In this document: piece after piece, positions 2,967 through 11,398 of the stretch
How the letters are laid out: the number at the start of each line of letters is the position of its first letter
Numbering within the stretch: the first letter of the stretch is position 1
The notes under the pieces: generated by a model
What the model was told of the DNA's origin: nothing
The model's input: the letters and a program-made list of their open reading frames with translations, nothing else
The model's database searches: none
From: Streptomyces sp. NRRL S-350
GTDB lineage: Bacteria > Actinomycetota > Actinomycetes > Streptomycetales > Streptomycetaceae
Assembly: GCF_000719705.1 (NCBI RefSeq)
Contig: NZ_JOHO01000107.1
Span: forward strand, 1-12,829
DNA: 12,829 nt
Reading direction: 5' to 3'
Program-made: the position numbers and the translations under genes

Positions 2967-3292
2967 TCGTTCACCGGGGCGATGCGGGCCCGCTTCGGAC
3001 GCAATGATCCGACACCCGCGTCGGAACCAACCGCGCTCCGCTTCAAGGTGGTTCCGGCCACGGCCACCGGCTCGATGAGGTCGTCCATCGTGCAGTCCAG
3101 GATGTCCAGCAGGGCCGTCAGGATTTTCAGGCTCAGACGTTCAGGGCGTTCGACGACGAGCCGGTAGACCTGACTGGAGGACAGTTCGATGCCGCGCTCA
3201 GCCAGCAGCGGGGTGATGTCGGTGGTGGAGAACATACCGCGCGTCGCCATGACCTGCCGCAGGTGCCACTGGTAGTCGAGCTTGCCCGTCAT
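2963..3292 (-). CDS. Small helix-turn-helix (Cro/C1-type) protein of the mobile module
   Basis: This is a 109-aa protein with a compact Cro/C1-like helix-turn-helix over residues about 7-75. The recognition region is SSSQVYRLVVERPERLSLKI, followed by a helix LLDILDCTMDDLIEP that is typical of actinobacterial XRE proteins; the C-terminus (RPKRARIAP) is basic. The ATG at 3292-3290 overlaps the integrase stop by 4 nt (ATGA), and the gene's own TGA overlaps the GTG start of the zinc-ribbon gene by 4 nt (GTGA), so the three genes were translationally coupled. It is the only member of the trio with an undamaged frame. In comparable actinobacterial modules an HTH protein of this size lies between integrase and large recombinase; it may act as regulator or as accessory DNA-binding protein. 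The HTH call is firm, the role is inference. Confidence 0.88.
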   Translation of the reverse strand: MTGKLDYQWHLRQVMATRGMFSTTDITPLLAERGIELSSSQVYRLVVERPERLSLKILTALLDILDCTMDDLIEPVAVAGTTLKRSAVGSDAGVGSLRPKRARIAPVNE

Positions 3293-4408
3293 CGACGGTC
3301 CTTCCCCGTTGTCGTGTGCTCCCCGGCCAGCGCGGGGGTGAGGGCCTTGAGCAAGGCCGTGTTCATGAAGTCGCTGCTGACGTGGGTGTATACGGCCGTG
3401 GAGCTGTCACATTCGTGTCCGACTTGGGATTGGATAAAGCGCCGGTCGACCCCATCCTCGGTCAGATGCGTGACGTAGCTGTGGCGGACGGAATGGACGA
3501 CGAACTCCTTCGGCAGCTTCAGGGCGTCGCGGTAGGCAACGAACCGGGCGTTGATCTCCGCCGGCTTGATCCGGCCGCCCCGCTCGGTCACCCACAGCGC
3601 GGGGTGGTCCTCGCAGCCGAACCTTGGCCGGACGTTCGGACCGCCCATGGCCATACCGAGATCACCATCCAGCGCTTGGAGGCTGTCCGGCGCCGGCCTT
3701 CCCCCAGCGGACCGCCAGGCCCGCGTAGTCCCCGAACTCGGGCAGCTTCGCCTGACGCCGCCAGTCGTGGGTCTCCAGTCGGGCCGTCTCCCTGCGTCGC
3801 AGACCCCAGCCGTACATCGTCGTGAACATCGCCAGGTCCCCGGTCGCGGCGAGTGCTCCCTTGTGGCCCTGTTCGCGCAGACGCTTGATCTCCGGGTTCA
3901 TCTGTCCGAAGAAGGACTTCACCTCTGCTCTCGTCAACGGCCGGTTGCCACTGAGCTGGCCGATGTACTCCTGCGCGTGCCGGGCCGCGTTCAGATCCCT
4001 CAGCGCGAAGCCGGTGAACATCCCGAAGGTGCTCAGGCGCATCTGCGGCCACTCGTAGGCCGGATCGCTCAGGTAACTCAGATAGAGCGCAAGGTCGTTC
4101 TGATACTTTCGCATCGTCGACGTCGCGACGGTGTCCGCGAGCATCGCCGACCACCGGTCGAACAGCCGCCTGTCCCAGGCCGATTCCCACGGGTACCCGT
4201 CGGACATCGCCTGGACCTGGCGCGCGATACGAGCCCTGGTGTTGACCGTGTCCCAGGACAGCCTGCGGGCCCGCTGATGGTCCGCGAAGCCCAGCAGCGT
4301 CTTCTCGAAGACGGCCGCCTTCGGGCGGAGCATCGCCACGCCCGGCAGCACGTGCAGCGTCGCGACGCCCGGAACAGCTACCGATCCCCCTGCGGAACTT
4401 CGGCCCAT
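3289..4408 (-). pseudogene. Tyrosine-type site-specific integrase, broken by a frameshift and a small deletion
   Basis: ATG 4408-4406 is preceded by GGAGGG (4415-4420) at 6 nt. Residues 1-243 read in one frame: a SAM-like core-binding region, then the catalytic domain with box-I Arg (YGWGLRRRE, about residue 204) and the beta-strand Lys (VRWGKA, about 237). At 3677-3679 (CCTCCAAG) one base is missing; the next 15 or so residues (KRWMVISVWPWAV) are in another frame. At about 3637-3640 roughly 22 nt are missing compared with the family as I remember it, and the third frame supplies NVRPRFGCEDHPALWVTERGG, HSVRHSYVTH (HxxR), VGHECD and the nucleophile YTHV to the stop at 3289. Adding 23 nt back gives 381 codons, the usual size for this family. 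All catalytic residues are still encoded, so inactivation appears recent. The stop overlaps the HTH start (ATGA). Confidence 0.87.
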
Positions 4409-4843: not shown

Positions 4844-5530
4844 GTGTTCTTGGACTACGCGGTTGTCCGTGACAACCCCTCTGCGTGTGTGACCCCGGAG
4901 AGCCTGCAGCGACTGGCAGAGCATGCTCCGTACGAGGAGCAGGCGGCGGTGTTCGCGTCGATCGTGCTGCGGAACGAGTCGGTTCGGACGGTGCTGGAGC
5001 GATTGGCCGCGTTGGACGGCCTGCCGCCGTGGTACCTGACGGCGGGCTCGCTGTTCCAGACGGTGTGGAACGCGGTGGCCGGCCGGGAGGACCTGCAGGC
5101 CGGGATTCGTGACCACGACCTGTTCTTCTTCGACGAGGACACCTCGTGGGAGGCTGAGGACCTGGTGATCAAGCGCTGCTTGGCGGCCGTCGAGGACCTG
5201 GGCGTCGAGCTGGAGCCGAGGAACCAGGCCCGCGTGCACCTGTGGTACCCGGAGAAGTGGGGCAAGGAGATCGCTCCGTACCGGGATCTGCCGCACGCGA
5301 TCAGCTCGTTCGCCGCGACCAGCTGCTGCGTCGGGCTGAGCCTCGACTCCGCAAGCAAGTTGGACGTGCACTCGACGCACGGCTTCGCGGACCTGTTCCG
5401 GCTGGTGCTGCGGCCGAACCCGCTGACCGTGGCGCCGCAGGCGGTGTACGACGCCAAGGCGGAGCGGTGGATGGCGGAGTGGCCGCAGCTGACGAAGCTG
5501 CCCTGGGCGGAGCCGACGGCTTCCGCCTAG
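4844..5530 (+). CDS. Nucleotidyltransferase family protein (NTP_transf_6-like)
   Basis: This is a 228-aa protein. GTG at 4844 is the first usable start after an in-frame TGA at 4838 and is preceded by AGGGG (4832-4836) at 7 nt. The family core is plain: WYLTAGSLFQTVWN (residues 63-76, a GS as in nucleotidyltransferase folds), then GIRDHDLFFFDEDTSWEAED (87-106) with metal-ligand-like acidic residues D90 and D92. Downstream come RVHLWYPEKWG, SFAATSCCVG and RLVLRPNP. These match the bacterial family of stand-alone NTP_transf_6 proteins (COG3575-type) as I recall it; its substrate is not known. No signal peptide or membrane span is seen. The gene stands alone, divergent from the mobile module and convergent with murB, whose stop is 43 nt away. 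It could be an antitoxin-like or RNA/protein-modifying enzyme, but nothing here shows which. Confidence 0.88.
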   Translation: MFLDYAVVRDNPSACVTPESLQRLAEHAPYEEQAAVFASIVLRNESVRTVLERLAALDGLPPWYLTAGSLFQTVWNAVAGREDLQAGIRDHDLFFFDEDTSWEAEDLVIKRCLAAVEDLGVELEPRNQARVHLWYPEKWGKEIAPYRDLPHAISSFAATSCCVGLSLDSASKLDVHSTHGFADLFRLVLRPNPLTVAPQAVYDAKAERWMAEWPQLTKLPWAEPTASA

Positions 5531-5573: not shown

Positions 5574-6617
5574 TCATGATTTGGCAGTCCACAGGCCTAT
5601 GCGTGTCGGTTCGGGCTGGAGCGTGATGCCGGTCGTGGTCGCTACCTGGGCGGCGAGGTGGGTGAGCGCCTGGTGGAACCCGGCAGCAGTGGCGTCCCCG
5701 TGAGCAGTGACCGTGAGGGTCCGGCGTTGCGAGCAGCGCACGCCTTCGGCGACTACCTGGCCGGGCCGGCAGCCGACGTGTTCCAGGAGCCAGCTGGCGC
5801 CGGCACGGAGTTCGCCGTTGCTGTCGCGGTGGACGGGACAGCCGAGGTCGGACCAGAGCGTGGCCTGGGTCGTGGTGATGCGAGGGTTGAGGAAGACCGA
5901 TCCGGCTTGCCGGGCGTCCGGGCCGCTCGGGTCGAGGAGGAGACCGCGGTGGCGCCGGTTGGCGAGGACGGCCGCGGTGACCTCCGGGACGGTTGGGCGC
6001 GCGCCGATGGGGACGCCGAGTTCGTCGGCGAGCGGGCGGTAGGTGATCCCGGCCGCCGGGGCGCGGGTGAGGTGGAGCGTGGTCGTGAGGATGGTCCAGC
6101 GGCCGGGGGTCTGCTTGAAGCGGCTGTTGCGGTAGCGCAGGCGGCAGGCCTGGGCCGGGAAGGTCCTCACGCAGCCCATGCCCCAGTCCCAGACCGTGAC
6201 TCCGTGTAGCGCGTCGGCGATCTGCCGGCCGTACGCGCCGGCGTTCTGGACCGGGGCTGCGCCGACGGTGCCGGGTATCCCGGCCAGACACTCGATGCCG
6301 GCGAGCCGCTCAGCGGCGGCCCACTGGACGAGATCGGCGAGCGGGTGGCCGGCCTGGACGGTGACGGCCACCCTGGTGTCGTCGAGCTTCTCCACGGTGA
6401 TCCCATGGGTGTTCATGACGACGACGGTGCCGGGATGCCCGGCGTCTGCGGCGATCACGTTGCTGCCGTGCCCCAGGACGACGGGGCCGTCCTGCTCCCT
6501 CGCGCCGATCGCGCGGGCGGCGTCGTGCCAGTCAGCCGGGTCTGAGAGGTGAAGGACGGTCCCGGCGGGCCCGCCGAGCCGGAGGGTGGTCAGCGATGCG
6601 AGCGTTGCCTGGGGCAC
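5574..6617 (-). CDS. murB: UDP-N-acetylmuramate dehydrogenase (MurB) paralogue
   Basis: MurB reduces enolpyruvyl-UDP-GlcNAc to UDP-MurNAc with NADPH and FAD in the cytoplasm. The start is GTG 6617, giving 347 aa (family usual is about 350), with GAGAGGA (6626-6632) 8 nt upstream; the open frame reaching up to 7067 is only antisense-free overlap with the preceding gene. FAD-binding motifs are present: LGHGSNVI (48-55) and GIECLAGIPGTVGAAPVQNAGAYG (107-130). YRNSRFK (162-168) follows, then the catalytic Ser in AGSVFLNP (S240) and the C-terminal Glu in LQPEPTRIG (E336), matching S229 and E325 of the E. coli enzyme. All key residues are kept, so it should be active. It is the last gene of the five-gene run, 13 nt after the serine hydrolase, and converges with the nucleotidyltransferase. 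Housekeeping murB genes of actinomycetes normally lie elsewhere, so this is probably a second, specialised copy. Confidence 0.93.
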   Translation of the reverse strand: MPQATLASLTTLRLGGPAGTVLHLSDPADWHDAARAIGAREQDGPVVLGHGSNVIAADAGHPGTVVVMNTHGITVEKLDDTRVAVTVQAGHPLADLVQWAAAERLAGIECLAGIPGTVGAAPVQNAGAYGRQIADALHGVTVWDWGMGCVRTFPAQACRLRYRNSRFKQTPGRWTILTTTLHLTRAPAAGITYRPLADELGVPIGARPTVPEVTAAVLANRRHRGLLLDPSGPDARQAGSVFLNPRITTTQATLWSDLGCPVHRDSNGELRAGASWLLEHVGCRPGQVVAEGVRCSQRRTLTVTAHGDATAAGFHQALTHLAAQVATTTGITLQPEPTRIGLWTAKS

Positions 6618-6625
6618 AGCAAGGG

Positions 6626-6632
6626 TCCTCTC
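6626..6632 (-). promoter_or_regulatory. Shine-Dalgarno sequence fixing the murB start
   Basis: GAGAGGA on the minus strand lies 8 nt before GTG 6617 and overlaps the stop codon of the preceding gene. It settles the murB start at the short form; the long upstream extension of the same frame has no homology to MurB. Confidence 0.6.
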
Positions 6633-7668
6633 AATCGGCGGTGACGGCCTTGAGGGCGAGGTTGCGCAGCGGGGCGAGGCGGGTGCGGTTGTCCTGGTGG
6701 TGGTAGACGGCGTTGGTGCAAATGGCCAGGTAGCGGCCGGTGGCGGGGGCGAGGTAGAGGCTGGTGCCGGTGAAACCGTGGTGGTAGGCGATCCGGCCGC
6801 CGTCGGTGAGGATCCACGCCAGGCCTCGGTGGAGGCCGGGTTCGATCTCGGCCTTCGGCTCCATGCTGGTTCGGAGCCAGGCGCCCAGCCCGCTGCTCCC
6901 GTCGGCGTACGCAGCGAGAAGCCCGCTGGCGAAGGTGGCCAGGTCGGCCGGGGTGGTGAACACCCCGGCGTGGCCGGCGACGCCGCCGAGCAGGGTGGCG
7001 TTGTCGTCGTGCGGAGTGCCCCACAGGCGCGGGCCGCCGGGGAGACGCTGCTCGGTCGGGGCGACATCGGCGGACCGGCCGACGGGGCCGTAGGTGGTGT
7101 GCGTCATGCCGAGGGACTGCCAGAGGTCGGCGGCGAGCTGGTCCAGGCGGCGGCCGTGGAGGTGGGCTAGCGCGAGGCCGAGAAGGATGAATCCGCGGTT
7201 GATGTACCGGTGGCCGGCGCCGGGTTCGGCGATGAGCGGTTCGCCGCAGATCAGCTCGGCCAGGGGCTCGGTGCGCCCCCGGTACTGGTCGAGGCGGGTC
7301 TCGGCCCGCAGACCGGAGGTGTGCGCGAGGATCTGTTCGACCGTCACCTTTCCGCCGGGTGCTTGGTCCTGCACACCGGGCAGCAGATTGCGCACCGGCG
7401 TGTCCACGGTGATGCCGTCGGCGAGGCCGACCAGCGGCCAGGTGGCCAGCACCTTGGTCAGCGACGCGGCGTCGTAGACCGTGTCCGGGCCGGGCCGGGC
7501 GTCCCCGCACTCGGGTGCGACGATGCCGGAGGCGGCGAACCCGGGCCGGCTGTCCCGGGTGCCGTAGGCGATGACGCCGCCGGGCAGGGCGCCGTCGTCG
7601 GCCAGCAGATCGAGGCACTGGCGCAGTTCGGCAATGGTGTCCGCGTTCCACGGTCGGGTGCTGGTCAT
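6631..7668 (-). CDS. Beta-lactamase-family (class C-like) serine hydrolase, cytoplasmic
   Basis: This 345-aa protein starts at ATG 7668, overlapping the murA stop by 4 nt (ATGA). It has the three active-site motifs of the penicillin-recognising fold: SLTK (S69-K72), YIN (Y155-N157) and HHGFTG (H297-G298 in the KTG position). HTSGL (116-120) is also typical. PHDDNATLLGGVAGHAGVF (219-237) resembles the version in the YbbE / PBP4B (YfeW) group as I remember it, members of which are tied to peptidoglycan turnover. There is no N-terminal signal sequence (MTSTRPWNADTIAEL), so it should act inside the cell on a small molecule, for example as an esterase, amidase, D-aminopeptidase or acyltransferase. 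Lying between murA and murB in a tight operon makes a muramic- or lactyl-sugar substrate plausible; that is inference. Confidence 0.9.
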   Translation of the reverse strand: MTSTRPWNADTIAELRQCLDLLADDGALPGGVIAYGTRDSRPGFAASGIVAPECGDARPGPDTVYDAASLTKVLATWPLVGLADGITVDTPVRNLLPGVQDQAPGGKVTVEQILAHTSGLRAETRLDQYRGRTEPLAELICGEPLIAEPGAGHRYINRGFILLGLALAHLHGRRLDQLAADLWQSLGMTHTTYGPVGRSADVAPTEQRLPGGPRLWGTPHDDNATLLGGVAGHAGVFTTPADLATFASGLLAAYADGSSGLGAWLRTSMEPKAEIEPGLHRGLAWILTDGGRIAYHHGFTGTSLYLAPATGRYLAICTNAVYHHQDNRTRLAPLRNLALKAVTAD

Positions 7669-8969
7669 GGCGTCTCCTGGTCGATTGTCAGAGGAGCTCC
7701 GAGTGCAGCGAGTTTGGGCAGCAGGTCACCGTAGCCGCGCCGGAGGTGGTACATGCCCCGGATCGTAGAGGTGCCCTCGGCCGCCAGGGCGGCGAGCACG
7801 AGCGCGGTCACGGCGCGGATGTCCTCGCCCTCCACGTCAGCGGCAGCCAGCCGGGACGGTCCCTCGACGGTGATCACCTGGTCCTGCGCGTTGACGTCCG
7901 CGCCGAACTTCCGTAGAGCGGCGAGGTGGCTGTCGCGGCGGATATAGATCCGCTCGTCGATCCGGGACGTCCCGGAGGCCTGGGTGAGGACGGCGGTCAG
8001 CTGGGGTTGGACGTCGGTCGGGTAGCCCGGGTGCGGGCCGGTCTCCATCTCCACCGCGCGCAGCCCGGCTGGTACGGTGACCGTCGTTCCGCCGCGTTCG
8101 GCGGTGAGGAGGATCCCGGCGTCGGCGAAGACCGACACCAGGCCTGTCGGGAAGTCGCCGAGCGGGAAGGCGTCGAGGTGGACGGTCCCTCGGGTGATCG
8201 CGCCGGCGAGCGCCAGCGTGGCGGCCTCCAGCCGGTCGGGCGGCACGGGGAAGACGCCGCCGGCGATGCGGTCGGTGCCGGTGACGTGCAGGGCCTCCGC
8301 GCCCTGCCAGGTGATGCCGACGCCGGAGCGGGCGAGCAGGCCGGCAGTGACGGTGACCTCGGGCTCGATGCTCGGTCCGAGGACCGACGAGGTGCCGGAG
8401 ACGCGGGCGGCCAGCAGCATCGCGGTGACCGTCGCTCCCAGGCTCGGGCCCCACTTCCTGGTGCTGACATTGGTGATGAACGGCAGCCGCTTCGTTCCCG
8501 TGAAGCGGGCGCGCACCCGGCCCCGGCCGACCTCGACCTCGGCGCCGGCGGCTTCCATGGCAGCCAGGTGCAGATCGATGTAGCGGGCACAGAAGGCGTC
8601 GCCGCCTGGCAGGGGGAAGGTGACCTTGCCGGTGCGCGTGAGCAGGGCCGCGGCCATCACCGCGGTGGTGCGGATGCGCCGTCCGAGGTCGTCCGGGATG
8701 ACCGGGAAGTAGGAGTCCGCCGGCCGGGTCTCGAACTCACCGTCGGTGATGGTTGCGCGGGTGCCGGTGCGGTGGAGGATCTCCGCGCACACGCCGATGT
8801 CGAGGATTGCCGGGGCGCCGGTGAGCGTGAGCGGCTGGTCGGCGAGGATCGCAGCGGCATACAGGTGCAGGGCGATGTTCTTGCTGCCCTGGACCGTAGC
8901 CGTGCCGTGCAGCGGGTGGCCGCCGGTGATCCGCAGGGCGAGCCGGTCGGTGGTCGTGGTGGCGGTCAT
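7665..8969 (-). CDS. murA: UDP-GlcNAc 1-carboxyvinyltransferase (MurA) paralogue with Asp at the catalytic Cys position
   Basis: MurA transfers enolpyruvate from PEP to the 3'-OH of UDP-GlcNAc in the cytoplasm. This 434-aa EPSP-synthase-fold protein starts at ATG 8969, with GGGAAGG (8975-8981) inside the end of the preceding gene. Key positions are K30-N31 (QGSKN, E. coli K22/N23), R129 (R120), D319 in YPTDVQPQ (D305) and R385 (R397). The active-site loop is PGGDAFCARYIDLH: Asp124 replaces E. coli Cys115. The same Cys-to-Asp change occurs in Mycobacterium and Chlamydia MurA, which are active but not alkylated by fosfomycin. A Cys does occur three residues on (C127), unlike the usual Gly. The stop overlaps the hydrolase start. 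Related MurA-like enzymes (NikO, PolA) use nucleotides other than UDP-GlcNAc, so the acceptor is open. Confidence 0.93.
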   Translation of the reverse strand: MTATTTTDRLALRITGGHPLHGTATVQGSKNIALHLYAAAILADQPLTLTGAPAILDIGVCAEILHRTGTRATITDGEFETRPADSYFPVIPDDLGRRIRTTAVMAAALLTRTGKVTFPLPGGDAFCARYIDLHLAAMEAAGAEVEVGRGRVRARFTGTKRLPFITNVSTRKWGPSLGATVTAMLLAARVSGTSSVLGPSIEPEVTVTAGLLARSGVGITWQGAEALHVTGTDRIAGGVFPVPPDRLEAATLALAGAITRGTVHLDAFPLGDFPTGLVSVFADAGILLTAERGGTTVTVPAGLRAVEMETGPHPGYPTDVQPQLTAVLTQASGTSRIDERIYIRRDSHLAALRKFGADVNAQDQVITVEGPSRLAAADVEGEDIRAVTALVLAALAAEGTSTIRGMYHLRRGYGDLLPKLAALGAPLTIDQETP

Positions 8970-8971
8970 TG

Positions 8972-9712
8972 TCACCTTCCCTGGCTTCCGGCGGGGAAGA
9001 ACCCGCCGATCTGGGTTCGGGGGTAGAGGGTGGTGTGTGCGCCGATGAGGGTCGCGGGCTGGAGGACAGTGCCGGCGGGGACGATCACTCCGTCGCCGAT
9101 CACCGCGCCGAACTTGGTCTGGCCGGTGGCGATGCGACAGCCGTCGAGGTGAGCGCAGATCTCCTCGGTGGCCGGCTCGACGACCGGCCCGCTGGTGACG
9201 CGCAGGCCGGTGGTGGACACGAACGCGCCGATGTTGACGCCCAGGCCGAGGACGGAGTCGCCGACGAAGCTGGTGTGCTTCATGAAGACGCCGCCGGTCA
9301 GCAGCGAGCGGGTGACCTCGGCGCCCCACCCGATCCGGCAGTCGGGACCGATGACGGAGTGGTCCCGGACGCGGGCCCCGGCGTCGATCACCGCGCCGGA
9401 GCACACCAGCACCGGGCCCGTGACGACCGCGCCCTCCGCGATGACGGCGCCGGCTGCCACGGTCACCTCGCCGCGGACGACGGCGCCGGGCTCGATGACC
9501 CCGGCCGCTTCCGGCAGCTTGATGCCCGACCGTCCGGTCAGCAGGTCGGCGATGGCCTTCTTGACCCCGAAGACGGTCGGGCAGCTGCTCAGCAGGCACG
9601 TGACGACGGGGTCGGTGACCTGCTCGGTGTCGATGTAGTACTCGGGCGTGGTGCGGTAGTCGATGCGCGCCAACTCGGCGCTCATCGTGGGAGTTTCGGG
9701 CAGCCGGTGCAT
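8972..9712 (-). CDS. Hexapeptide-repeat (left-handed beta-helix) acyltransferase, GlmU-C-terminal-like
   Basis: This 246-aa protein starts at ATG 9712, preceded by AGGAG (9721-9725) at 8 nt; a second ATG at codon 10 lacks such a site. Residues about 70-240 are a run of hexapeptide turns with hydrophobic-Gly spacing (GVIEPGAVV, AAGAVIAEGAVV, SGAVIDAGARV, HSVIGPDCRIGWGAEV, VNIGAFVSTTGL, TKFGAVIGDGVIVPAGTVL), the beta-helix seen in acetyl-CoA-dependent transferases. TKFGAVIGDG and LIGAHTTLYPRTQIGGF resemble the C-terminal domain of GlmU-like sugar-nucleotide proteins. The N-terminal uridylyltransferase domain of GlmU is absent, and residues 1-65 are an unrelated helical lead. H146 (FMKHTSFVG) is a candidate catalytic base. 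It ends 2 nt before murA. Likely role: N- or O-acylation of an amino sugar or sugar nucleotide feeding or decorating the MurA/MurB product. Confidence 0.88.
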   Translation of the reverse strand: MHRLPETPTMSAELARIDYRTTPEYYIDTEQVTDPVVTCLLSSCPTVFGVKKAIADLLTGRSGIKLPEAAGVIEPGAVVRGEVTVAAGAVIAEGAVVTGPVLVCSGAVIDAGARVRDHSVIGPDCRIGWGAEVTRSLLTGGVFMKHTSFVGDSVLGLGVNIGAFVSTTGLRVTSGPVVEPATEEICAHLDGCRIATGQTKFGAVIGDGVIVPAGTVLQPATLIGAHTTLYPRTQIGGFFPAGSQGR

Positions 9713-9772
9713 GGCTGGGTCTCCTCTCGGCGGCGAGCGAGTGGAAGAGGGCGGCTGGTGAGGCCCGGGTGC

Positions 9773-9979
9773 TTACGGGGTGGGCAGGTCCGGGGCGGCA
9801 GCCGCCGCGACCTCGGGCCGGGCGTCGTGCTGGTGCTGGACAGCGAGGCCCAGCAGGACGAGCACGGGCACGTGCAGGGCGGCCCAGGACGCGGTCAGAA
9901 GGGTGCCGAGCCGGTCACGGTCCGGTGGTGCGGCGTGCCGGGGGGCGGCCGGGAACGGGGAGGTGCTGGACGTCGGCAT
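9773..9979 (-). CDS. Small single-span membrane protein, first gene of the Mur-like run
   Basis: This 68-aa protein has an excellent Shine-Dalgarno site, GGAGG (9988-9992), 8 nt before ATG 9979, and a strong bias to G/C in third codon positions, so I take it as real despite its size. Residues 1-24 are polar with Pro and Arg; 26-47 form one hydrophobic segment (TLLTASWAALHVPVLVLLGL); the rest is HQHDARPEV plus an Ala/Pro tail. I do not recognise a family. The basic N-terminus (RHAAPPDRDR) before the span suggests N-in topology. It lies 60 nt upstream of the hexapeptide transferase in the same direction and is likely co-transcribed. A membrane anchor or scaffold for the following cytoplasmic enzymes is possible, as is a role unrelated to them. 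Confidence 0.6.
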   Translation of the reverse strand: MPTSSTSPFPAAPRHAAPPDRDRLGTLLTASWAALHVPVLVLLGLAVQHQHDARPEVAAAAAPDLPTP

Positions 9980-9998: not shown

Positions 9999-10019
9999 TG
10001 GGACGGGTTGGCTGTCCCA
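9999..10019. promoter_or_regulatory. Inverted repeat in the leader of the five-gene run
   Basis: TGGGAC (9999-10004) and GTCCCA (10014-10019) are perfect complements separated by 9 nt. The repeat lies just upstream of the Shine-Dalgarno sequence of the 68-aa gene. It could be an operator or a leader hairpin limiting ribosome access. Its arms are only 6 bp, so chance is not excluded. Confidence 0.3.
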
Positions 10020-10045
10020 GTGAACTGCCGGCTCGATGCCGTGAT

Positions 10046-10080
10046 CCGTAGTCGGACTACGGGCCGTAGCCCGACTACGG
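10046..10080 (-). terminator. 35-nt nested double palindrome abutting the regulator stop: terminator/attenuator or operator
   Basis: Plus strand: CCGTAGTCGGACTACGG (10046-10062), one G, then CCGTAGCCCGACTACGG (10064-10080). The first half is itself a perfect palindrome around a central G, the second nearly so, and the halves are 18-nt tandem repeats. Together they also form one 35-nt palindrome with a single internal mismatch (10056 with 10070). In plus-strand RNA that pair is A-C; in minus-strand RNA it is U-G, so only the minus transcript gives an unbroken stem. It begins directly after the TGA of the regulator, as expected of a terminator or attenuator between regulator and five-gene run. 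There is no U tract. A repressor with twofold symmetry could equally bind the two units. Confidence 0.6.
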
Positions 10081-10081
10081 G

Positions 10082-11398
10082 TCAGATGACCTGTACGCCA
10101 GCGCGGGCGGCGAAGTCCCGCACGCCCGGAAGTTTGCGGTCGTACCTCAGTAGGCCGACGGCGAGGTCACGGACAGAGCCCCGACGGACCTCCTGCGGAG
10201 CCGCTTCCTCGGCGGCGAGCAGGGCCCGGTAACAGTGCTCATGCTTGCCCCACTGGTCGAACGCACGGGCTACGTCCGTGAAGAACCTGGCCTGCCGCTC
10301 GGCAGTCGGAAGCGCCGACGGATCGACCGTCCTGGCCAGCTCGATCGCCCGGCCGGCGTCGCCGAGTTCGTGGTGCACCGACAACTCGTGCAGGGCGACT
10401 CCCTGGACGCCGTCCGCCCGGCCGGAGGCCCGACTTGCTGCAGCAGCGCTGTCGGCGGCCTCCTTGATGAGGGCGTGCGCGAAGGACCGATCGCCGGACT
10501 TCGCCGCGGTGTACGCGGCGGTGGCATAGAGGTCGCCGCGGGTGGCCAGGCGGGCGGCCTCGGGCACCGAGGTCTCTGCGAGCAGATTCTCGGCAGCGAC
10601 CACCACGATGTCGGTCGCCCGAGCCAGACTGCCCTGGCGGCGCCATGAACTGGAGACCATCCGCTCGGCCTCGGCGGTGATCAGCGGGTCGCCGCCCATG
10701 CGGGCGGCGGTCAGCGCGCGGTCCGAGGTCACGGCAACCAGGTTGTTGTCACCGATCTTGATGCTCAACCTGACGGCGATGTTGTAGAGCTGGGCGACAT
10801 GGCAGGCCCTCTGCTCCGCCGTGCCGACCAGGTCTGCAGCCACGAGTCGTCCGGGCAGGGCCTCGGCAAGGACGTCGTACCTGGCCGCCTTGAACTCCTG
10901 ACGCGAGGAGACCAGTGAAGCGGTGACGGACTCCAGGGCCGGCTCGTGGCGGGGAGTCGGGATCCGCGCTGGCCCATACAACAGCAGGTCCTCCAGACCG
11001 GATAGCGGCGACGCCGCCTCGGCGTGCGCGACCTGCTGACCGGCGGGCGCCGAGACGAGGGCGGCCACCGCCAGGGTCAGGAACGGGCGGCGACGCACAT
11101 CGTCCTCCTCGGGACCGGAAGTCGTCGCCAGCGTAGCTGAGCTGACACGACGTCGCGGTGATCTCGGCCTCTTCGCGGCCGGTTGCGGCAAGGCCATCAA
11201 CTTCTCGATCTCGACGCCCAGGGCCGAGGCCAGACGCCGTAAGAGCTGCACGTCGTGGACCTGCTGGACATCCCGCTCGACCTGAGACATCCAGTCCTCG
11301 CTGCGGTCGAGCTCGGTTGCCAGGCGCAACTGCGTCCAGCCCAACTCCGAGCGGCGCAGCGATACGAACCTGCCGAACGTGATGTTGCCGTCAGTCAC
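10082..11398 (-). CDS. XRE-family transcriptional regulator with C-terminal helical (TPR-like) sensor region
   Basis: The start is GTG 11398 with GGGAGGG (11403-11409) just upstream, giving 438 aa; the frame extends further upstream but without homology. Residues 7-66 are a Cro/C1 helix-turn-helix (RFVSLRRSELGWTQLRLATE, then DRSEDWMSQVER and LRRLASALGVEIEKL). Residues 72-100 are a basic, flexible linker. Residues 102-120 (RRRPFLTLAVAALVSAPAG) look like a twin-arginine motif plus a hydrophobic stretch, which recurs in this Streptomyces regulator type and is probably structural. Residues about 150-430 are Ala-rich paired helices in the manner of TPR repeats (LYNIAVRLSIKIGD, AAYTAAKSGDRSFAHALI, HELGDAGRAIELA), a likely ligand- or peptide-sensing domain. 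Such regulators often sit beside natural-product or morphogenesis operons. It lies 103 nt upstream of the five-gene run on the same strand and is its obvious candidate controller. Confidence 0.88.
   Translation of the reverse strand: MTDGNITFGRFVSLRRSELGWTQLRLATELDRSEDWMSQVERDVQQVHDVQLLRRLASALGVEIEKLMALPQPAAKRPRSPRRRVSSATLATTSGPEEDDVRRRPFLTLAVAALVSAPAGQQVAHAEAASPLSGLEDLLLYGPARIPTPRHEPALESVTASLVSSRQEFKAARYDVLAEALPGRLVAADLVGTAEQRACHVAQLYNIAVRLSIKIGDNNLVAVTSDRALTAARMGGDPLITAEAERMVSSSWRRQGSLARATDIVVVAAENLLAETSVPEAARLATRGDLYATAAYTAAKSGDRSFAHALIKEAADSAAAASRASGRADGVQGVALHELSVHHELGDAGRAIELARTVDPSALPTAERQARFFTDVARAFDQWGKHEHCYRALLAAEEAAPQEVRRGSVRDLAVGLLRYDRKLPGVRDFAARAGVQVI

Follow-up and report, generated by a model that had tools for sequence, protein, structure and literature searches.

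Why would an actinomycete encode extra copies of the two enzymes that build the lactyl ether of muramic acid, and do so in one run with an acyltransferase and a hydrolase? The question is raised by contig C107 of Streptomyces sp. NRRL S-350, analysed here as one window over its whole length of 12,829 bases. The genome (8.78 Mb, 253 contigs) has mostly Kitasatospora as its nearest named relatives. Paralogs of MurA (enolpyruvyl transferase) and MurB (UDP-N-acetylenolpyruvoylglucosamine reductase-like) are encoded in the window together with HexA, an N-acyltransferase-like protein that combines a left-handed beta-helix with a helical N-terminal region, and SH, a cytosolic serine hydrolase of the class C beta-lactamase / S12 fold. 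Based on the recurrence of these genes in other actinomycetes, the trio HexA-MurA-SH is the core of a module to which MurB is optional.

An earlier note, made from the sequence alone, placed five same-strand genes here with an XRE regulator preceding them, and all were recovered at the stated coordinates from open reading frames (ORFs) and family profiles. The order of transcription, all on the minus strand, is XRE-TPR regulator, small ORF, HexA, MurA, SH and MurB. HexA (8972..9712, 246 aa) and MurA (7665..8969, 434 aa) are separated by 2 nucleotides, MurA and SH (6631..7668, 345 aa) overlap by 4, and a gap of 13 lies between SH and MurB (5574..6617, 347 aa). The regulator, being on the same strand, probably belongs to the operon unit. 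Further mur, fts or mra genes did not turn up among the window proteins scanned against family profiles.

The earlier note would have been refuted by the lack of a second murA/murB, but besides the cassette the genome holds another murB on contig C3 (37% identity) and murA-like genes on C34 (32%) and C30 (30%). The cassette genes are therefore not the sole copies, and with other copies present that are only 30-37% identical we rule out that they are the housekeeping genes. By eye, the C30 paralog (G000:C30:72421, L048) seems to have an N-terminal helix-turn-helix (HTH) fused to the enolpyruvyl transferase.

The second condition that would have refuted the note fails too, as the set is conserved outside this strain. 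A neighbourhood search yielded 48 non-redundant actinomycete loci with the set or parts of it, and HexA, MurA and SH are intact in 39 of these, in the same order and on one strand in every case. The remaining nine comprise two that are cut off by a contig end (L032, L109) and seven in which a gene of the trio is broken or missing. The count leaves out 12 loci that probably duplicate genomes already included, as well as six with MurA and no HexA, SH or MurB (L024, L025, L027, L028, L042, L044). Over four pairs, the ratio of nonsynonymous to synonymous substitution (dN/dS) ranges from 0.16 to 0.46 in the enzymes, from 0.08 to 0.26 in the regulator and from 0.32 to 0.62 in the small ORF. Since the trio is collinear wherever it is intact and its dN/dS is constrained, we conclude that the gene set is not due to chance.

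MurA matches at E ≤ 1e-100 occur in 18 of 70 same-genus genomes (own genome included), and HexA at E ≤ 1e-40 in 24 of 394 genomes of the family. Named genomes with HexA loci include Kitasatospora, Streptomyces, Actinacidiphila, Streptacidiphilus, Embleya, Streptosporangium and Microtetraspora. Among the best 80 of 321 HexA relatives, 34 are actinomycete loci and 46 are distant relatives (L118-L164 without L121) that have no SH nearby and, in two cases, MurA nearby (E ≤ 1e-8). A search of genome contigs with MurA alone confirmed no relative. Nine stretches of viral contigs matched a pattern, none of them encoding HexA.

MurB is the variable member. In the window it starts at a GTG after GAGAGG (a longer, 497-aa reading of the ORF extends back into SH), carries FAD_binding_4 and MurB_C domains, and scores 258.7 bits against a cut-off of 231 for NF010478 (match at 5577-6602). 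The counterparts of E. coli S229, E325 and R159 are kept in 21 of 21 sequences and Y190 in 20 of 21. Of the 39 loci with an intact trio, 23 have an intact MurB, five a broken one and 11 none, the last being counted where tblastn gave no match at E ≤ 1e-6 in the surrounding 8 kb, so that a diverged MurB or a short remnant, such as the one in L078, would escape. The L107 copy was counted as intact, its stop being the natural end. Thus, what had been described as a MurA/MurB cassette does hold extra, free-standing copies of both genes, but its core is HexA-MurA-SH, and 16 of the 39 loci are without an intact MurB.

The MurA of the window scores above the NF006873 cut-off (330.4 bits against 297). 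It retains K22, N23, R91, R120, D123, S162, G164, E188, T304, D305, R331, D369, R371 and R397 (E. coli numbering), each kept in 38 or 39 of 39 clade members. Five of these residues, D123, S162, G164, E188 and T304, are kept in 39 of 39 aligned MurAs; they belong to the UDP-GlcNAc site and contact the nucleotide sugar, and their retention suggests that the cassette MurA may use UDP-GlcNAc. Both the 39 MurAs and the 21 MurBs in the residue comparison are full-length calls of a simple gene caller, and the 39 MurAs are not the 39 trio-intact loci, as they include the variants L024, L025, L042 and L044. Position 115, the Cys that fosfomycin targets in E. coli, is Asp in all 39 and in all of the 120 best database proteins among 1,200 matches, the window's included in both counts. 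Both MurA-like paralogs of the same genome have Cys there. The cassette MurA is therefore, judging from this residue, probably insensitive to fosfomycin. Recoding at an in-frame TAG in seven MurA matches was considered and rejected: because the alignments end at or just past the TAG, it is most likely the natural end.

HexA corresponds to the C-terminal half of Arch_glmU. As the earlier note had recognised, the protein lacks the GlmU uridylyltransferase domain: it has Hexapep/GlmU-like repeats only, with a match confined to positions 233-391 of Arch_glmU. GlmU-type acetyltransferases use a catalytic His and bind phosphate through Arg, Lys and Tyr. In HexA, H146 aligns with GlmU His363, K200 with Lys392 and an Arg with Arg333. 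The predicted structure, of modest confidence, is closest to ST0452, which fills the first seven Foldseek rows. HexA would thus share with the GlmU C-terminal domain and ST0452 the beta-helix and the His363 and Lys392 counterparts, and differs from them in the missing uridylyltransferase domain, the helical N-terminal part, a Phe in place of Tyr366 and a loop insert of about 25 residues.

SH matches PF00144, and no signal peptide was seen on inspection by eye, in agreement with the cytoplasmic class-C-fold hydrolase claimed before. Its S69 and K72 (SxxK), Y155 and HHG motif (H297) are invariant in 12 of 12 aligned sequences, and the solved structures closest to it in sequence are those of S12 peptidases, Flp and carboxypeptidases. 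The SxxK, Tyr and HxG motifs are common to S12 hydrolases in general (D-peptidases, carboxypeptidases, esterases). SH differs from them in having no signal peptide visible by eye and in being encoded between MurA and MurB.

What, then, does the module make? The answer we favour, plausible to us although somewhat short of an even chance, is a mobile, regulator-controlled accessory pathway to a muramic-type (3-O-lactyl) UDP-sugar, possibly with an unusual N-acyl group, that feeds a host pathway. HexA would N-acylate an amino sugar 1-phosphate or a UDP-amino sugar in the manner of the GlmU/ST0452 C-terminal domain, with an acyl group that is perhaps not acetyl, and the host GlmU would supply uridylyl transfer. 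The cassette MurA would add enolpyruvate to the 3-OH, with Asp replacing Cys115, so that fosfomycin would not alkylate it. MurB, from the cassette or from the host, would reduce the enolpyruvyl group to the lactyl ether, and SH would cleave or move an acyl or amide group, either of the substrate or of the product. The resulting sugar would then pass into the wall or glycan pathway of the host, because glycosyltransferases and exporters are missing from the module. The extra-copy status of the genes, the collinear trio, the Asp in MurA, the kept catalytic residues of MurA, MurB and SH and the His363, Lys392 and Arg333 counterparts of HexA are consistent with such a route. So are three loci (L024, L025, L042) in which a MurA of the same subclade has a nucleotide-sugar epimerase beside it in place of HexA, SH and MurB, and the PIG-L and RmlD-like genes upstream in L026, L111 and L114. 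Such changes of partner suggest that the nucleotide sugar used by MurA may take a form set by whichever enzyme accompanies it.

Several results weigh against this proposal. Since 16 of the 39 trio-intact loci have no intact MurB, the lactyl step may be dispensable. Where MurB is kept, its dN/dS (0.27-0.46) exceeds that of the other three enzymes in two of four pairs. MurA falls short of the TIGR01072 murA equivalog cut-off (315.2 against 392.7), and the counterparts of W95, P121 and L124 are changed in most of the 39 MurAs, although the window's retains Leu at position 124. The Phe at the Tyr366 position of HexA and the long loop insert mean that glucosamine 1-phosphate is not assured as its substrate, and the HexA model has a mean predicted local distance difference test (pLDDT) score of 68.7, with most of the C-terminal third below 60. 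Ligases, translocases and glycosyltransferases are all missing from the set. Lastly, although the four proteins agree in their pairwise distances (Pearson correlations of 0.89-0.95), shared descent would also produce this.

The muramic-type side route is nevertheless preferred to two other readings. The better of these, which we consider unlikely without being far-fetched, is resistance by target bypass: an inducible supply of UDP-MurNAc through a fosfomycin-insensitive MurA would guard the host, or the element, from natural MurA inhibitors, and HexA and SH would back up acetylation and detoxify or sense wall fragments. The earlier note had put forward both a modified lactyl-ether sugar nucleotide and a bypass of inhibited housekeeping enzymes. 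That all relatives examined have Asp, against Cys in both own paralogs, speaks for an enzyme independent of inhibition of the fosfomycin type. According to PMC4790336, E. coli C115D MurA is active and is not inhibited by fosfomycin, and Asp occurs naturally in the MurA of Mycobacterium, Chlamydia and Borrelia. The equivalent E. faecium change, C119D, comes with little loss of efficiency, whereas E. coli C115D is more than 10-fold less efficient, according to PMC5652432; the latter figure speaks against bypass. The cassette MurA differs from the Asp-type MurAs of Mycobacterium, Chlamydia and Borrelia in being an accessory copy beside Cys-type paralogs, and its Asp may simply mark the lineage and have no link to resistance. 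Bypass would fit the mobile-element genes next to some copies, and loss of the cassette MurB would be tolerable because the host has a MurB. However, HexA and SH accompany MurA in 39 intact loci and are not needed for a MurA bypass, which argues against bypass alone, and other loci that pair MurA with an epimerase lack both.

A phosphonate link was considered, as the cassette set is carried by S. rubellomurinus and K. phosalacinea, both of which are phosphonate producers, and was rejected. Phosphoenolpyruvate (PEP) mutase matches at E ≤ 1e-40 occur in 6 of 18 MurA carriers and in 14 of 52 other same-genus genomes; above the family cut-off the counts are 0 of 18 and 2 of 52, so that bypass gains no clear PEP-mutase-like enrichment in carriers.

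The neighbourhoods of the module bear on a second alternative, rather unlikely in our view, in which the product of the trio is an N-acylated nucleotide sugar with an enolpyruvyl or lactyl group that serves outside the wall, as a natural-product precursor or signal, and MurB is a tailoring enzyme only. The optional MurB fits this. So do three variant loci (L024, L025, L042) where MurA lies beside an NAD-dependent nucleotide-sugar epimerase and HexA, SH and MurB are missing. Their MurAs nest in the subclade of the window's MurA (SH-aLRT 95 for the 22-row subclade, 99 for eight rows that include the variants), in a quick tree in which L028, L027, L044 and the paralogs sit on long branches and are unsurely placed. 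A NUDIX gene is annotated or found by Pfam near the MurA of L024 and L025 and seems present in L042.

Further pointers to a small molecule are a MurA relative beside genes of the non-ribosomal peptide synthetase type (L028), an NsdA-family TPR regulator beside the L034 copy, and FxLD-type methyltransferase genes near L111, L114, L117 and L025. NsdA has a role in secondary metabolism. The L111 gene is a fusion with methyltransferase and NUDIX domains, those of L114 and L117 look alike by eye, and L025 has an annotated fxlM. On the other side, no exporter, synthetase or glycosyltransferase recurs with the trio in neighbourhoods that were mostly read by eye, and without genes for transfer or export the set is less likely to be a natural-product cluster complete in itself. 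NikO-type transferases of nucleoside antibiotics are a case of the MurA fold recruited outside peptidoglycan, but NikO acts on UMP, keeps the Cys and is fosfomycin-sensitive, according to PMC6801904. The cassette MurA has Asp, keeps the UDP-GlcNAc-site residues and is far closer to MurA chains (best match 1.8e-67, against 1.5e-23 for the NikO chain 4fqd, in a sequence comparison with solved structures).

Most improbable is peptidoglycan salvage, in which SH and HexA would process recycled muropeptides or amino sugars while MurA and MurB top up UDP-MurNAc: SH bears a weak resemblance, at 49.2 and 33.8 bits and thus far short of the cut-offs, to proteins of the PBP4B/AmpH type, which have a link to muropeptide turnover, but MurA and MurB are de novo enzymes, and none of the recycling enzymes NagZ, AmgK, MurU and MurQ was noticed by type in neighbourhoods where most genes were not scanned against family libraries.

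That the accessory pathway would be mobile follows from the surroundings of several copies. The complete set lies on plasmid pFRL4 (L026), and MurA relatives are found on further Streptomyces plasmids. The L032 set is near integrase, HTH_17 (excisionase-like) and DnaB-like genes, with similar ORFs seen by eye in L035-L037 and L039. As read by eye, the trio is constant while flanks and regulators differ between lineages. We conclude that the module is mobile in at least some lineages; the window copy has only a split integrase nearby. The earlier picture of a free-standing cassette thus holds, the cassette being distinct from the genome's own copies; the trio recurs in differing flanks, which do not amount to one recognisable natural-product cluster.

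One such flank is shared by pFRL4, L111 (S. actuosus) and L114 (S. anulatus), where a PIG-L deacetylase (GlcNAc-deacetylase family), an RmlD-like gene, a nitrilase-like hydrolase and a peptide deformylase lie upstream; the PIG-L/RmlD-like neighbourhood was Pfam-tested in L111 only. Peptide-deformylase-like genes are near the cassette at L035 5796-6359, L039 5830-6393 and L111 5701-6267, the last being the one tested with Pfam.

The enzyme families themselves are known. With the MurA and MurB of peptidoglycan synthesis the cassette shares families, kept catalytic residues and adjacent reactions, and it is set apart by the extra copies, the Asp for Cys115, the linkage to HexA and SH, and the optional MurB. 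No published description of the gene set was found in a literature search of open-licence papers. The combination, the trio as a unit and an accessory Asp-for-Cys MurA look new. The result is a recurrent module that pairs a Cys-less MurA with an N-acyltransferase and a cytosolic hydrolase in actinomycetes. Should it yield a modified muramic acid, horizontal transfer would let actinomycetes change the chemistry of their walls; should it yield ordinary UDP-MurNAc, the module would be a transferable route around the fosfomycin target. All four enzymes are small and probably soluble.

How might such a module be controlled? The regulator (10082..11398, minus strand, 438 aa) has an XRE-type HTH (HTH_31, PF13560) and a C-terminal TPR domain. 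Between its gene and the small ORF, the intergenic region reads CCGTA-N7-TACGG-N-CCGTA-N7-TACGG (10046..10080), followed by the promoter-like element TTCACTGGG (10016..10024, minus strand). Of 17 aligned loci, 13 have the exact palindrome pair with a spacer of 1-2 nucleotides, and L033, L043, L076 and L077 have an imperfect form of it. TTCACT is found in 17 of 17 aligned intergenic regions and TTCACTGGG in 13 of 17. The paired palindrome is probably the operator of the XRE-TPR regulator, and the operon would be read from a promoter at this site with the regulator bound there, presumably upon induction. Single palindromes number 11 in the same genome, compared to 19 for a reversed control. We rejected the idea that the pair is unique to the cassette, as it also fits C8:57142-57176, within overlapping 9-base repeats.

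The regulator model (pLDDT 83) combines the HTH with a TPR superhelix. Foldseek placed PlcR second, with a poor overall fit. In VIA-align comparisons the regulator gave 17.5 with Rap, 16.9 with AimR, 15.9 with NprR, 18.2 with MalT domain III and 20.6 with an unrelated TPR protein, and PlcR was absent among the best 50 rows. With unrelated TPR proteins in the top rows the resemblance to RRNPP regulators is not specific, and we rejected a specific likeness. Residues 101-126, between HTH and TPR, form an RRR motif and a hydrophobic stretch ending in AHA, which we take to resemble a twin-arginine (Tat) signal. R102-R104 and A124 are invariant in 16 aligned sequences, the window's included, and the stretch, of low confidence in the model, may anchor the regulator in the membrane. 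Several other lineages have a divergent or different regulator beside the trio.

The small ORF (9773..9979, minus strand, 68 aa) has one hydrophobic segment (hydropathy maximum 1.9) and a PDLP-type tail in most copies, and no Pfam family matched it. Homologs occur in 10 other same-genus loci at E < 1e-3, and other lineages have different small ORFs or none that was found. Hence the small membrane protein counted in the original set is present in the window but is recovered in only part of the loci. The arrangement recalls the RRNPP systems of Firmicutes (PlcR, NprR, Rap, AimR): the HTH and TPR fold fits, as it does for many TPR proteins, and the propeptide might have its counterpart in the adjacent small hydrophobic ORF, which is present in part of the loci only. 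Peptide sensing by the regulator and the small ORF is a lead only. We know of no peptide-sensing system of the RRNPP type in actinomycetes. Of two RRNPP surveys, PMC9765709 covers Firmicutes and PMC10075063 Firmicutes and viruses. PADLOC, whose library holds anti-phage defence systems known in 2023, gave no match for the enzymes and only generic HTH-type models for the regulator.

A long shot that would join these parts is peptide-controlled wall reprogramming: the TPR regulator of a mobile operon would sense a tail peptide cut from the small membrane protein and leave the operator, and the trio would make a UDP-muramic acid with a new N-acyl group to take the place of the usual one in the wall. 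Cells so altered would be shielded, as a population, against MurA inhibitors, muralytic enzymes or phage.

Other short peptides are encoded in other lineages. At L030 6522-6644, L032 16608-16865 and L034 11735-11992 the small ORF is replaced by a peptide ending in EYVARIEVWPACACPQHRA(D/G). These loci have a divergent regulator, of the NsdA family in L034 and alike by eye in the others. A 31-aa ORF ending in IIQECWWERCR is conserved between two lineages (L103 8023-8118 and L105 3795-3890) and sits near a TPR-like regulator upstream of the trio.

Beyond the cassette, an apparently split tyrosine recombinase occupies 3289-4408 of the window, with the C-terminal part of the integrase domain in one ORF and the rest in another; its relative in L028 is annotated as a single coding sequence. 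An NTP_transf_6 nucleotidyltransferase gene (4844-5530, plus strand) converges on the 3' end of the cassette. In 5 of 11 sources scanned, tRNA-Ser(GGA) adjoins a dnaX-like gene.

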